A DNA stretch of 64,000 nucleotides from assembly GCA_026386805.1 (NCBI GenBank), contig JAPLMX010000205.1, forward strand, positions 1 to 64,000, written 5' to 3'. Shown here one piece after another: positions 56,651 to 62,062 of the stretch. Both the position numbers and the translations under genes were made by a program. Source of the DNA: Phycisphaerae bacterium (GTDB taxonomy: Bacteria; Planctomycetota; Phycisphaerae; Sedimentisphaerales; Anaerobacaceae). Under the pieces are notes generated by a model, which saw only the letters and a list, made by a program, of their open reading frames with translations, was not told where the DNA came from and searched no databases. How positions within the stretch are numbered: the first letter of the stretch is position 1; every line of letters begins with the position of its first letter.

Positions 56651-57688
56651 TTACATCGTCACCGTCAGATACTCCGTGTCCTGGGTGAACTGGGCTACCC
56701 CTTCGAACGCGGCGGGTATTACGAAGCAATCCCCGGCCCTGAACTCGACCGGCTCCGCCTCGCGGGACAGGATCGTGCCGCCGCCGGTGAGGAAGATCAA
56801 GACCCTCAAGCAGCCCCGCGCGAAGAACCGCTCACCATTGGCCGCCTGATGTCCCTTATCCACCCTGAAGAACACGCAATCGACTAACCGCCCCACCGTC
56901 GCGACGGGTAGCTCGTCCGGCGTTACGTTGAAATGGATGCTTTCGAGGGCCTCGTCAATGTGCAGCGGCCTGGGCTTGCCCGAGTCATCCACCCGATTCC
57001 AGTCGAAGACACGATAGGTCGTATCGGAGGGGGTCTGGACCTCGGCAATGAGCAGACCCGCCCCCAGGCTGTGGACAGTACCGGCGGGAATGAAATGGCA
57101 CTCCCCGGGCTTCACGGGTACTTCGGCGAGCAAATCGGCGGCTGTTCCGTCCTGAATCGCCGTGGCAAACCGCTCTCTCGTGACGCCTTTCTTGAACCCC
57201 TTGTAGATCACCGCCCCCGGCTCGGCTTGAACGACATACCAGCACTCGGTCTTGGGGTCACCCTTGCCCATCTGCCGACAGGTCTCGGCGTCCGGGTGAA
57301 CCTGAACGCTCAGCACATCTTGCGCATCCAGGAACTTGACCAATAGCGGAAAACGCTCCAGACGTGTGTCGCGGCCATCCTGGCCGCGCTGTGTCGAAGG
57401 CGTCCCGCCTTCGGATCGCGGGCGGGACGCCCGCGACACAAATCCATGGGGCACGCCTTGCGTCCCCGCGATCTCCTGCGCGTATCGGCGGACGACCTCA
57501 CCCAGCGTCTGTCCCGCCAGTGGCCCATTCCCAATTGTAGACTGGCCTTCGGGCAGGTCCGCGATTTCCCAACTCTCGCCGATCTTCTCCCCCGGCGGAA
57601 GCTCCTTGCCAAAGGCTTCTTCAAGGTTCCGCCCACCCCAAATCCGCGACTTGAACACCGGCACCGATTTCAAAGGATATGTTTTCAT
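56651..57688 (-). CDS. manA: Mannose-6-phosphate isomerase, class I, with in-frame repeat insertion
   Basis: 345 residues from MKTYPLKSVPVFKSRIWGGR (ATG 57688, or 57697 three codons earlier). Converts fructose-6-P and mannose-6-P. Cupin zinc motifs VLSVQVHPDAETC and ECHFIPAGTVHSLGAGLLIAEVQ; YRVFDWNR follows. Residues 84-108, between TQGVPHGFV and LERFPLLVKFLDAQDV, are an insertion encoded by the palindromic element 57366-57439; the family normally goes straight into FPLLVK. The frame stays open upstream through the repeat array to 58252, so automatic callers may add ~190 spurious residues. Confidence 0.9.
   Translation of the reverse strand: MKTYPLKSVPVFKSRIWGGRNLEEAFGKELPPGEKIGESWEIADLPEGQSTIGNGPLAGQTLGEVVRRYAQEIAGTQGVPHGFVSRASRPRSEGGTPSTQRGQDGRDTRLERFPLLVKFLDAQDVLSVQVHPDAETCRQMGKGDPKTECWYVVQAEPGAVIYKGFKKGVTRERFATAIQDGTAADLLAEVPVKPGECHFIPAGTVHSLGAGLLIAEVQTPSDTTYRVFDWNRVDDSGKPRPLHIDEALESIHFNVTPDELPVATVGRLVDCVFFRVDKGHQAANGERFFARGCLRVLIFLTGGGTILSREAEPVEFRAGDCFVIPAAFEGVAQFTQDTEYLTVTM
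57366..57439. repeat. Nested palindromic element in frame inside manA
   Basis: Terminal inverted repeat GTGTCGCGG (57366-57374) / CCGCGACAC (57431-57439), perfect 9 bases. Inner hairpins: GCGGCCATCCTGGCCGC, CGAAGGCGTCCCGCCTTCG and GCGGGCGGGACGCCCGC. Same family as 58773-58822. Confidence 0.9.
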
Positions 57689-57741
57689 AGCGTCCATTCT
57701 ACCAAAGCCGGCAGGTCTCTCGAAAGCCGCAGTCCCGCGGA

Positions 57742-58243
57742 AATTGGCTTTGTTTCGCAGAATCCCTCTGGGCTGCCGATGTGACACAACTCCTTTTCCA
57801 TAAAGCACTTGTCGGAAAATTGGCTTTGTTTCGCACGATTGGCTCCACCGGCGGCACTGGCGCCTTGCCGACCCTGGCCCATTGTTGTCCGCGTGGCAAT
57901 TGGCTTCGTTTCGCACGCTTTGACCCAGTGGTAACGGCATGGGCGATCTTGCCCGCCCTCGCCCACCGGTGCCCGCCGACGGAAATTGGCTTTGTTTCGC
58001 AGAATCCCCGTGGGCTGCCGACGTGGCGCAAATCCTTTCCCATAAAGCGCTTGTCGGAAAATTGGCTTTGTTTCGCACGATTGGCCCAATCGGCGGCACT
58101 GGCATCTTGCCGACCCTGGCCCATTGCTGTCCGTGCGGGAATTGGCTTTGTTTCGCACGCTTTGACCCAGCGGTAGCGGCATGGGCGACCTTGCCCGCCC
58201 TCGCCCACCGGTGCCCGCCGGAGGGAATTGGCTTCGTTTCGCA
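57742..58243. repeat. Higher-order tandem array: seven AATTGGCTTTGTTTCGCA cores, period 242
   Basis: Core starts: 57742, 57818, 57898, 57984, 58060, 58140, 58226. Spacings are 76, 80, 86, 76, 80, 86. The three intervals differ from each other but each recurs in the next block (GGGCTGCCGA..., GGCGGCACTGG..., GCCCGCCCTCGCCCACCGGTG-type; the last is 20+ bases shared), so the array is (A-B-C)x2 plus a final core. On the minus strand the cores read as CETKPI, RNKANF or AKQSQF depending on frame. Located directly upstream of manA. Confidence 0.92.
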
Positions 58244-58418
58244 CAATTGCATCCTCGGCCCCGGACGGTACGTTGGCCCGCGACGGGAACGATAGAATGA
58301 TGCAGGGTGTCAGTCACCCGACGGACGGAACACGCCAATTCTTTTTCAATCACGCGGTTGGCGAGAATGGTTGCCTCCCCGGGCATCGTGAAGCCCTCCA
58401 AATTGCGTTTCCGTTAAC
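58244..58418. other. Gap without recognisable gene
   Basis: Between the array and the IS200-derived element. It contains a short GGTGTCAGTCACC-type palindrome near 58308 but no supported coding sequence. Confidence 0.4.
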
Positions 58419-58607
58419 CACCGGCTCTGCCGGTGAGCATTCACAAGGCTCTGCCGTTTCGTGCGTGTTTTTGGGTAGGTAGTTCCCCTTGAGGAAGGCC
58501 CCGCCGGGCCCAGGAGAACTACCATGAAAGAACGGCATAGTCACGCGATGGCCCCTTTTAGGGGCCTTCCTCATACCACCGGCTCTGCCGGTGGTTCTGA
58601 TTCATAG
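58415..58607 (+). mobile_element. Miniature element derived from an IS200/IS605-type insertion sequence
   Basis: Hairpin CACCGGC-TCT-GCCGGTG at 58419-58435 and ACCACCGGC-TCT-GCCGGTGGT at 58575-58595 mark the two subterminal ends. Between them an ATG at 58524 with AGGAG upstream reads MKERHSHAM, like the first residues of IS200-type TnpA, then passes straight into the right-end hairpin and stops at 58607. It also holds GGAAGGCCCC/GGGGCCTTCC arms. The transposase body is missing, so it would need TnpA in trans. Confidence 0.6.
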
Positions 58608-58772
58608 TTCGCAACTCGCTATTCAATTGCATGAATATCATACTCAACGTGACATTGTGTGTCAAAAGAATTCGGGCCGGTTCTCGGAATTTCTGCATCC
58701 GTTCCGTTCGATGTAGGCAAACCATTGCTGGGAAAGGAGTTACGCAAATCCGACTTGGCCTTGACGATGGTT

Positions 58773-58909: not shown

Positions 58910-61900
58910 ATGGAGAATGAAGCCCGGGAGAAACGACCGTTCGATGTTTTCCTGTCCCACAACAGGAAGGACAAGCCCGCTGTACGCGAGTTGGCCGCGG
59001 CGCTGCGCAAGCGAGGGATCAAGGTGTGGCTGGATGAAGATGAACTGATTGCCGGCGACAATTGGCAGCATGGCCTTGAGAATGGGATCACGGACTCCGA
59101 TACTTTTGCCGTGTGCATTGGTCCGGCGGGCATCGGTCCCTGGGAAGACCAAGAGATGCAGGCGGCGTTGGTGTTGGCGGTGGAACTGAAACGCCGGGTC
59201 ATCCCGGTTGTCCTGCCGGCCGCGCCCGAGAAACCTCAGATGTCCTTATTCCTCAGAACTCGAACTTGGGTTGACTTGCGTCCCTCCCTCACCGAAGAGG
59301 GATTGGCGAAACTGGAACGGGGTATCACCGGGCGGAGACCTGGCTCGGACACCACGAATGACATCCCGCGCTCCGGGCCGCCTTGCGACCGCCCGCCGCG
59401 AGCGCAGGCGGGGAAGCTCTTTGGCCGGGATGCTCAGCTTGATGACCTTATCGGCCGGCTCCGCCGGCGCGAGAGCACCTGTGTCTGGGGTCCGGCCGGA
59501 TTTGGCAAGACTGCCCTCGCCGCCGAGGCAATCCACCGCTTGCTCGCCGAAGTTGGCGACGATCTGGCCCGCAGCCCATTCCCCGGTGGCATTGTATTGC
59601 TTGATCTCTATCGGCTCAGCGATCATGGCGGGCGGCCCTGGGACCAGCTTGCCGAACAGGCCTGGCACACCCTGGCCGACAAGCTCGAGCCCGCGCAGCG
59701 GGCCGATCAGCCTGCGCGCGACCGTGCCCGGAAGGCCTGCGCCGGACGCCAAGCCCTTGTCGTCGTGGAAGGCGCCGAGGAAGCCGGAGATTGCGAGAAC
59801 TTGACCGACCTCCTCTCCGTCCTGGACGACGTGGCCCGTCGGCTTGTCCTGACACGCAGCAAAGGCCAGTGCGCCCTGCATGATTTCATTCACGTCGATG
59901 TTGAGCTTGAGCACTCGGAGGCGCTTGCCCTTCTGCGCAAGCTCGCCCAAGGCCGTGCGTCGGAAGACGTGTTGACCGGCGTTCTGCACGCCCTGGGCGG
60001 GCATCCGCTGGCGCTGACGTGGGCCGGCTGCCAGCTTGCCTTGGCGGAAGAACCGCCCACGCTCTTTCTCAAGGAACTCCAAGCCGAGAAACTGCCGCGA
60101 CTCCACGACCCCCAATACGAGAAACACACGTTGAGATGGCTCTACGACCGCAGCGTACGCCGACTGCCCGAGGACGCCCGCCGTGTACTGGCCGCTGCCG
60201 GCCTGCTCGCGCCCGCGCCCTTTGACGCCGGTGTCGCCGTCGCGGCGCTGTGGGAAACCGACACGCCGCAGACCCCGGAGACCGACGCGCGTGCCCATGA
60301 GGCTCTCAGGCAGCTTGTTCGGCAGGGCTTGCTACGTTTAGTGCCGGACGACGAACGTTGGGAATTCACCCATCCTTTGGCTGCCCGTTTCGCGACAGAT
60401 GAGGGGGCCTTTTCTATTTGCCTGCTCCAAGCGCTGAGCCGGTGGATTCCTCATGCCTTCCAGAATGCCGTAATGCACTTACGCCGGACGCAGGACTTTT
60501 CCTGTGTGCAGGCTGTTTCGCTCCACGCCAGCGCTTTGCTGGCCCACGACAAGACCCGTGACGCGGCTGGATGGCTTGCTGATTGGCTCCTTTATGATGG
60601 TCAGGACTTACTCTTCGCTTTGGGTCGAGTTGGCCATGCACGCGACAGCTTGAGCAGTGTGGAGACTTGGATGCTTCGCCAGGCGGAGGAGAAACGCGCG
60701 ACTTCACAGTGGCGACGGGAGTTTTCCTGCGTGTTGAACCGCCAGGGGGACATTCTACTTGCGCAAGGGGACTTGGCGGGGGCGCGAGCCAGTTATGAGC
60801 GGAGCCACAATATACGTGAGGAATTGGTGAGGGGCGATCCAACCAGCGCCCAGTGGCAGCGGGACCTGTGCGTCAGCCTGGAGAGGCTGGGTGACGTGCA
60901 GTTGGCGCAGGGGGACTTGGCAGGAGCACGGGCCAATTACGAGCAGAGCCGCAAGGTTCATGAGAAGCTGGCGCAGGGCGACCCGACCAACGCCCAGTGG
61001 CAACGGGACTTGAGCGTCAGCCTGGAGAAGCTGGGTGACATACAGATGGCGCAAGGGGACTTGGCGGGGGCGCGAGCCAGTTACGAACAGAGCTTCGCTA
61101 TTCGTGAGAAGTTGGCGAGGGGTGAACCGGCCAACGTCGTGCGGCTGCGGGACTTGACCATCAGCGTAGAGAGGCTGGGCGACGTGCGGTCGGCACAAGG
61201 GGACTTAGCGGGAGCACGGGTCAAGTACGAGTTAAGCCGCAAGGTTCATGAGAAGCTGGCGCAGGGTGATCCGACCAACGCCCAGTGGCAGCGAGTCCTG
61301 AGCGTCAGCCTGGAAAAGCTGGGCGACGTGCAGTTGGCGCAAGGGGACTTGGTTGGAGCGTGGGCCAGTTACGAGCAGAGCCACAAGATACGTAAGAAGC
61401 TGGCGCAAGGTGATCCGACTAACGCCCAATGGCAGCGGGACTTGGGCGTCAGCTTGGAGAAGTTCGGCAATGTGCAGTGGATGCGGGAGGATCTGGCGGG
61501 GGCGCGAGGCAGTTACGAGCGGAGCCGTAGGATTCATGAGAAGTTGGCGGCGAGCGATCCGACGAACGCGGAATGGCAGCGGGACTTGGGTATGAGTCTG
61601 ATCAAGCTGGGCGATGTTCAGTTGGCCCAGAGGGACTTGGCGGGAGCGTGGGCCAGTTACGGGCAGAGCCACAAGATACGTGAGAAGTTGGCGCGAGGCG
61701 ATCCAACCAACGCCTCACGGCAGTATGACTTGAGTGTCAGCAATGAGAGGCTTGGGACCGTTTTGCAGGAACAGGGGGACTTAGAGGGCGCTCTGGACGC
61801 CTTTCGAAAGAAATTCGGCATCATCAACAAGTTGACGCAGGGCGACCCGACCAACGCCGAGTGGCAGCGGGACTTGGTGGTCTCCCGGGGCAAGCTGGGT

Positions 61901-62062
61901 GACCTCGCGGCTAAAGCGGGCAACCCGGTCGCCGCCCGGCAGGAGTTCACTGCTGCATTGGCCATTGCCGAGCGTCTGACGAAGCTGGACCCCACCAATG
62001 CTACCTGGCGCAATGACGTTGCCTGGCTGCGTGACCGACTCGGACAACTCCCGCCGGTGTGA
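58910..62062 (+). CDS. TIR-STAND(NB-ARC)-TPR protein, probable anti-phage defence
   Basis: 1050 residues. TIR domain at about 8-145 (FDVFLSHNRKDKPAVRELA, VWLDEDELIAGDNWQHGLENGI); Glu57 sits where NADase TIRs have the catalytic Glu. STAND ATPase from about 165: FGRDAQLDDLI, Walker A VWGPAGFGKTAL with Lys200, Walker-B-like ALVVVEGAEEAGD, then helical and winged-helix parts. From about 603 come nine 48-residue TPR-type repeats, consensus GDVQLAQGDLAGARASYEQS plus IREKLAQGDPTNAQWQRDL, very alike at DNA level. By analogy with Avs-like and TIR-STAND proteins, the TPRs sense a phage cue, the ATPase oligomerises and TIR depletes NAD (inference). Single gene, own promoter. Confidence 0.9.
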   Translation: MENEAREKRPFDVFLSHNRKDKPAVRELAAALRKRGIKVWLDEDELIAGDNWQHGLENGITDSDTFAVCIGPAGIGPWEDQEMQAALVLAVELKRRVIPVVLPAAPEKPQMSLFLRTRTWVDLRPSLTEEGLAKLERGITGRRPGSDTTNDIPRSGPPCDRPPRAQAGKLFGRDAQLDDLIGRLRRRESTCVWGPAGFGKTALAAEAIHRLLAEVGDDLARSPFPGGIVLLDLYRLSDHGGRPWDQLAEQAWHTLADKLEPAQRADQPARDRARKACAGRQALVVVEGAEEAGDCENLTDLLSVLDDVARRLVLTRSKGQCALHDFIHVDVELEHSEALALLRKLAQGRASEDVLTGVLHALGGHPLALTWAGCQLALAEEPPTLFLKELQAEKLPRLHDPQYEKHTLRWLYDRSVRRLPEDARRVLAAAGLLAPAPFDAGVAVAALWETDTPQTPETDARAHEALRQLVRQGLLRLVPDDERWEFTHPLAARFATDEGAFSICLLQALSRWIPHAFQNAVMHLRRTQDFSCVQAVSLHASALLAHDKTRDAAGWLADWLLYDGQDLLFALGRVGHARDSLSSVETWMLRQAEEKRATSQWRREFSCVLNRQGDILLAQGDLAGARASYERSHNIREELVRGDPTSAQWQRDLCVSLERLGDVQLAQGDLAGARANYEQSRKVHEKLAQGDPTNAQWQRDLSVSLEKLGDIQMAQGDLAGARASYEQSFAIREKLARGEPANVVRLRDLTISVERLGDVRSAQGDLAGARVKYELSRKVHEKLAQGDPTNAQWQRVLSVSLEKLGDVQLAQGDLVGAWASYEQSHKIRKKLAQGDPTNAQWQRDLGVSLEKFGNVQWMREDLAGARGSYERSRRIHEKLAASDPTNAEWQRDLGMSLIKLGDVQLAQRDLAGAWASYGQSHKIREKLARGDPTNASRQYDLSVSNERLGTVLQEQGDLEGALDAFRKKFGIINKLTQGDPTNAEWQRDLVVSRGKLGDLAAKAGNPVAARQEFTAALAIAERLTKLDPTNATWRNDVAWLRDRLGQLPPV
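60718..62014 (+). repeat. Nine tandem 144-bp coding repeats (TPR units)
   Basis: Each unit encodes 48 residues, with GCGCAAGGGGACTTGGCGGG and CGATCCGACCAACGCCCA words repeated from unit to unit. The near-identity of middle units suggests recent expansion or gene conversion. Confidence 0.85.

Follow-up and report, generated by a model that had tools for sequence, protein, structure and literature searches.

What is the array of seven short, regularly spaced repeats that lies just upstream of a manA-type gene in the Phycisphaerae bacterium contig JAPLMX010000205.1 (assembly GCA_026386805.1)? The stretch analysed, referred to below as the window, comprises the first 64,000 nucleotides of this contig, and we compared it with the rest of its own 5.55 Mb assembly (G000) and with other genomes. 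We propose that a dispersed element, whose source is a gene of a family that we call NKSTG, has probably left a shortened, non-autonomous copy here, with the array as its body, and that such short copies spread in trans. The local duplication of 242 bp that gives the array its regularity is by itself ordinary, and the wider repeat family to which it belongs is more interesting.

The array consists of seven 18-bp cores (TGCGAAACAAAGCCAATT on the minus strand), which start at 57742, 57818, 57898, 57984, 58060, 58140 and 58226 when read on the plus strand, with start-to-start spacings of 76, 80, 86, 76, 80 and 86. Five of the seven are exact, those at 57898 and 58226 each carrying a single T-to-C change; chance would give 0.02 matches in the window, and none of 100 shuffles reached seven. 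The 242-nt blocks 57738–57979 and 57980–58221 align without gaps at 91% identity. Both the repeated spacing and the duplication of a 242-bp unit made of three sub-units had been noticed in an earlier reading of the letters alone (the sequence-only reading), and both are confirmed. In terms of the module types described below the order of the array is E-B-x-E-B-x, where x is a shortened module that looks A-like by eye:

58158–58243, minus strand: module E, copy 1; 86 nt, core 58226–58243 plus spacer.
58078–58157, minus strand: module B, copy 1; 80 nt, core 58140–58157 plus spacer.
58002–58077, minus strand: A-like module, copy 1; 76 nt (usual A 90–93), core 58060–58077 plus spacer, likeness judged by eye with no class from the classifier.
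57916–58001, minus strand: module E, copy 2; 86 nt, core 57984–58001 plus spacer.
57836–57915, minus strand: module B, copy 2; 80 nt, core 57898–57915 plus spacer.
57760–57835, minus strand: A-like module, copy 2; 76 nt, core 57818–57835 plus spacer.
57742–57759, minus strand: seventh core, 53 bp from the manA start codon.

When the core was sought throughout G000, as the sequence-only reading had proposed, it proved to be a genome-wide repeat, with 334 copies at up to three mismatches, mostly in short arrays, against 3 for a reversed control. Copy numbers in genomes of the same genus and family range from none to 359 and order-level relatives have almost none; across the phylum any match is found in 8 of 294 genomes, as a single copy in all except G000. 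Among titled genomes the exact 18-mer occurs mainly in metagenome-assembled genomes (MAGs) of Phycisphaerae and Sedimentisphaerales, and also in Bryobacterales and other Acidobacteriota. We found no publication on these repeats in the open-access full texts searched.

Our array statistics for G000 cover 339 kb of stretches, mostly selected for holding exact cores, in which there are 217 cores in 45 arrays of 1–15 units each and a single match to a control pattern. Tabulated by type and length, a step also proposed beforehand, the spacers sort into recurrent module types, which follow one another in a preferred order (AB 14, BC 13, CT 9 and CA 8 times); the commonest arrangement is D or E followed by A-B-C, at times with A-B-C repeated, and then T. 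Because lengths within a module type drift by several bases (A 90–93, B 78–86, C 60–88), the exact spacing in the window points to recent duplication, one of the two origins first suggested for it. The other, selection on length, is not supported, given this drift and the absence of any core array upstream of manA in eight of eight same-genus relatives.

The window array has no stops in any of its three minus-strand frames, which is not evidence of coding because arrays generally show no sense-specific depletion of stops in their spacers (119 sense versus 124 antisense). On the same count stop-free frames were dropped as a selected trait, and the arrays were rejected as protein-coding since each of the three frames is used, module lengths do not divide by three and stops are not depleted in the sense direction. 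A role as RNA had also been suggested, and direct repeats with differing spacers behind an upstream promoter are what a structured or CRISPR-like RNA might look like. However, a conserved fold of module A was looked for and not found (z near 0 for the full set, with no covariation support), an Rfam search of the array gave weak sub-threshold hits and no match, and the spacers, far from being unique, are homologous modules whose order recurs; this explanation is largely refuted and scarcely credible. A CRISPR array in the strict sense was rejected because the spacers recur as homologous modules of varying length, cas genes not having been searched for. Upstream of one nine-core array (L104, 3216–3307) there is a sub-threshold Rfam match to DUF3800-V RNA, at 34.8 bits against a cut-off of 37.4.

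Most arrays sit within a larger element, in which a consensus sigma-70 promoter, a leader, a Shine-Dalgarno sequence and a start codon precede the array. Homology between loci reaches about 300 bp 5′ of the arrays, up to a promoter, and the conserved part begins sharply, 10–30 bp upstream of the −35 box. The promoter, TTGAC-N18-TATGATA, occurs 50 times in the G000 genome and 0 times in the control, and cores lie within about 0.8 kb downstream of 44 of the 45 promoters inspected, of which a first set was chosen for its cores and a second 20 were taken from the promoter list. In one subclass GGAGGG and an ATG or GTG follow about 60 nt past the −10 box, and then codons like M-x-x-x-A-Q-V-L-A-N-R; a second subclass has the same promoter with a different leader and no clear start. 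The window copy retains promoter, start and repeats:

58637–58665, minus strand: element promoter TTGACA-17-TATGAT, a member of the 50-promoter family.
58597–58636, minus strand: start of the transcribed leader, GCAATTGAATAGCGAG..., a family leader sequence.
58416–58596, no strand given: another repeat, bounded by hairpin ends (ACCACCGGCAGAGCCGGTGGT), which interrupts the window leader between promoter and start and also flanks arrays in L103, L109, L110 and L134.
58394–58399, minus strand: Shine-Dalgarno GGAGGG, 7 nt before the ATG.
57685–58386, minus strand: 233-aa frame that starts MPGEATILANR and reads through the array, its stop overlapping the manA start (ATGA).
57696–57701, minus strand: manA −10 box TAGAAT; conserved as TANAAT in the corresponding position of other manA genes of the genus.
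56651–57688, minus strand: manA, mannose-6-phosphate isomerase type (named from the sequence-only reading and by inference), conserved in the genus.

Since a promoter, a Shine-Dalgarno sequence and an ATG introduce a 233-aa frame whose end falls on the manA start, one could suppose that the frame is translated as a leader peptide coupled to manA via the ATGA overlap. We regard this as very improbable, as manA has its own −10 box beside its ATG, the stops of most other elements lie elsewhere and the module lengths are not multiples of three. The frame start at 58386 is a remnant of the NKSTG N-terminus (MPGEATILANR, compare MASEAQVLANR). At another locus (L129, 4450–5088), near a contig end, a 16S rRNA fragment (model positions 874–1520) abuts the 5′ end of an element, either because the element was inserted into a 16S gene or because the assembly is chimeric there.

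The source of the element became apparent from two promoters of the 50-promoter set, which lead into a gene (MTSAAQVLANRSNAQKSTGPRTAQGKAVVSQNAVKHGLLAQEVV...) with about 180 conserved residues, the NKSTG family. Full-length copies share promoter, leader and start with the short copies and have cores 592–820 nt after the ATG; CETNPI...CETNPI in the tail corresponds to two in-frame cores on either side of module A, spaced 90 nt apart, or 75 nt in other copies. The minus-strand core had been recognised at the outset as encoding CETKPI/RNKANF-type peptides, rightly so, and it is the tail of NKSTG proteins that these peptides represent. The gene has 21 whole or partial matches in G000 and is present in 16 of 41 genomes. 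Full, truncated and stop-containing copies coexist, and short copies with the same two ends outnumber the full-length ones many-fold. Judged from their sequences, the arrays are internally deleted and expanded copies of the NKSTG gene in which both ends have been kept.

Over nine largely intact G000 copies the median dN/dS is 0.35, which indicates purifying selection and points to a translated NKSTG protein under constraint. It could not be assigned to a known protein family, as searches of Pfam, NCBIfam, PHROGs and PDB sequences and folds gave no match; there was no Pfam Y1_Tnp match, and the alignments, in which one tyrosine is invariant, contain no HuH motif. A model predicted from eight sequences is helical, at low confidence (pLDDT 68). 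Searches of phage and plasmid collections gave no phage match and five weak plasmid matches, and six IMG/VR contigs hold NKSTG relatives, two of which (L258 and L259, classified viral) have core variants 167–170 bp downstream. One NKSTG gene of G000 (L255, contig C62) continues from around codon 99 as a frame resembling, by eye, an IS110-type transposase.

Further insight into the relation between core and gene comes from other phyla. Among 30 non-planctomycete loci fetched by the 18-mer alone, eight (seven from Acidobacteriota and one from a Chlamydiae MAG) have an NKSTG homologue 5–280 bp away, and in all eight the site is inverted with respect to the Planctomycetota arrangement, the gene strand reading AATTGGCTTTGTTTCGCA (IGFVSQ). 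Acidobacteriota loci fetched by the protein alone hold a core at up to four mismatches in 12 of 30 cases (10 inverted, 2 not), and each of two control patterns matches none of these 30 loci. Over 41 genomes, core count correlates with gene count (Spearman 0.68, p=1e-6). The occurrence of closely similar site DNA in both orientations and in several frames argues for a role at the DNA level, and the 18-bp site appears to be conserved across phyla as DNA and not as peptide. Contamination of MAG bins is possible, yet it would not produce the linkage of core and gene. Some Acidobacteriota NKSTG tails (L287; L281) contain a SEC-C-like stretch (GRNEPCPC...) beside RNEPN, the DNA of which resembles the core, and it is possible that the core site originated there.

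The elements are present at some loci and missing from the corresponding loci of relatives. At L108 the element is flanked by two genes that G002 and G008 have in collinear order, with an interval about 400 bp shorter and no element in it. The L098 gene has no array upstream of it in G002, and at the L132 gene the homology of relatives begins about 45 bp beyond the element end. A 26-bp motif (AATCCGCCACCGTATGCCGGCCACAC), located 44 bp past the last core, forms the end of many arrays, and over 21 occurrences of this motif the promoter score peaks sharply at an offset of 28 (7.0 versus a background of 3.46, sd 0.60). The motif is also seen alone in other genomes, without array or linker, at the same 28 bp upstream of the neighbour's −35 box. 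The motif may mark the end of the element, which would then insert at a constant distance from promoters, or be an activator site in its own right. It is missing from the window copy, in which about 17 bp separate the last core from the probable manA −35. In G000 30 of 38 arrays point at a same-strand downstream gene (p=0.0005, with genes called around the arrays by our own hexamer script and not from annotation), a shared orientation that the arrays of G009 do not have.

It is conceivable from these positions that the arrays are regulatory, being clustered binding sites kept for their place upstream of promoters, where a regulator would act on the neighbouring gene. The orientation bias in G000 and the placing of the 26-bp motif, both beyond arrays and on its own, speak for such a role, whereas the bias is not shared by G009, array and motif are absent at orthologous promoters of relatives, the motif is missing from the window copy, and core number and spacing vary widely. 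We consider this possible but rather unlikely.

We favour instead the explanation given at the beginning, in which the window array derives from an NKSTG element. A full-length copy comprises a sigma-70 promoter, a leader of about 50 nt with a Shine-Dalgarno sequence, the NKSTG frame and a 3′ tail with direct cores 75 or 90 bp apart. In short copies the domain-coding middle has been lost, while the promoter with the first codons is kept at one end and the core modules are kept at the other, the modules having probably been multiplied by unequal exchange between cores; in the window an E-B-A block was duplicated once. The core would be recognised as a DNA site, in the simplest case by the NKSTG protein, and the short copies would spread in trans, in the way proposed for repetitive extragenic palindromes (REPs) and RAYTs. 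The data show how the element is built, that it descends from the gene, how many copies there are, that gene and core are linked across phyla and that elements are present or absent between collinear flanks; we infer the binding of the core, mobilisation by the NKSTG protein and any effect on manA; that the array acts as a binding array or a recombination substrate is possible.

An alternative that we think improbable is that the arrays are passive debris, left behind as host recombination multiplied and eroded a gene family of the ordinary multi-copy kind, with no mechanism devoted to its spread. Truncated and stop-containing copies alongside full ones, together with the lack of a transposase signature or target duplication, are consistent with it, but the 18-mer is kept in opposite orientations across phyla, short copies with the same two ends are many-fold commoner than full ones, docking occurs 28 bp from −35 boxes, and presence and absence at collinear flanks are clean.

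Several observations nevertheless weigh against spread by the NKSTG protein. Neither terminal inverted repeats nor a target-site duplication could be found at the element ends or at the L108 empty site, where the divergence of the 5′ flank might conceal a duplication, and this empty site could in principle represent a loss in the relatives. Cores flank the gene on one side only (3′). The low-confidence protein model matches no solved fold, and the protein shows no recognisable catalytic motif of known transposase families. Some genomes have 11–31 cores without a detectable gene (G017 and G019, with fragments only in G003 and G020). In Planctomycetota the core usually lies inside the coding tail, and part of its conservation there could be at the protein level. 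A bolder proposal, which we offer as tentative and on balance doubtful, is that an all-helical, non-HuH family that spans three or more phyla recognises a non-palindromic 18-bp site in the tail of its own gene and moves short derivatives to 28 bp upstream of sigma-70 −35 boxes, which would make it a new class of bacterial mobile element.

Two other repeats were seen in the window. Within manA, at 57353–57448 (about residues 81–112), there is an in-frame insertion of another dispersed hairpin repeat, of the GCGGGCGTCCCGCCCGCGACAC type, which is absent from same-genus manA genes, recurs in many other G000 open frames and is like Rickettsia palindromic elements in its behaviour. At 60761–61741 there are 144-bp tandem repeats in a 1050-aa frame (58910–62062) with, by eye, a TIR-domain/NTPase/TPR-type look.

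Among known systems the closest in logic is REP/RAYT (TnpA-REP), in which a gene is linked to short dispersed intergenic repeats thought to be spread in trans (PMC2817692, PMC3116915, PMC8266576). The NKSTG gene is likewise linked to short dispersed repeats in hundreds of copies and modular intergenic arrays. As for the REP/RAYT trait that the repeat is specific to genomes with the gene, the counts correlate over the 41 genomes, and two genomes have cores with no detected gene. REPs are hairpin-forming palindromes paired in inverted orientation, and their gene codes for a Y1 (IS200/IS605-type) transposase with a HuH motif and a catalytic tyrosine. Unlike REPs, the cores are non-palindromic and head-to-tail, with no consensus hairpin for module A, and they lie at the 3′ side of the gene and not at both sides; the protein has no Y1 transposase match or HuH motif, and the gene is multi-copy, with short copies that carry its promoter and first codons. 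In miniature inverted-repeat transposable elements (MITEs), non-autonomous deletion derivatives of transposons, there is a second parallel, as the short NKSTG copies are internally deleted, keep both ends and outnumber the full-length ones, but neither terminal inverted repeats nor target duplication were seen in the NKSTG element, and it has no known transposase. The NKSTG system is best read as REP/RAYT-like in logic, while departing from REP/RAYT membership in three tested features and from MITE membership in one.

Mycobacterial interspersed repetitive units (MIRU) are head-to-tail intergenic units of 46–101 bp, oriented with neighbouring genes, whose frames can overlap those of their neighbours. 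Tandem intergenic units oriented with their neighbours are also found in many G000 arrays, though not in G009; unlike for MIRU, a source gene with its own promoter is identified here and several module types recur in order. Beggiatoaceae similarly have many intergenic sets of short direct repeats before genes, with the sequence TAACTGA, for which a part in post-transcriptional regulation was considered possible (PMC4679880), but these are 7 bp long, whereas the NKSTG cores are 18 bp and linked to a gene tail. The NKSTG family accounts for a class of planctomycete proteins that look spurious and have CETKPI/KQSQF/RNKANF tails, as they stem from the tail and the debris of this single undescribed family. 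One protein and one 18-bp site, linked across phyla despite changed orientation and reading frame, form a testable pair. Should docking at promoters have a function, a portable regulatory module could be attached to many genes of such genomes, and if the protein spreads the repeats, a REP/RAYT-like arrangement would have arisen from unrelated parts.
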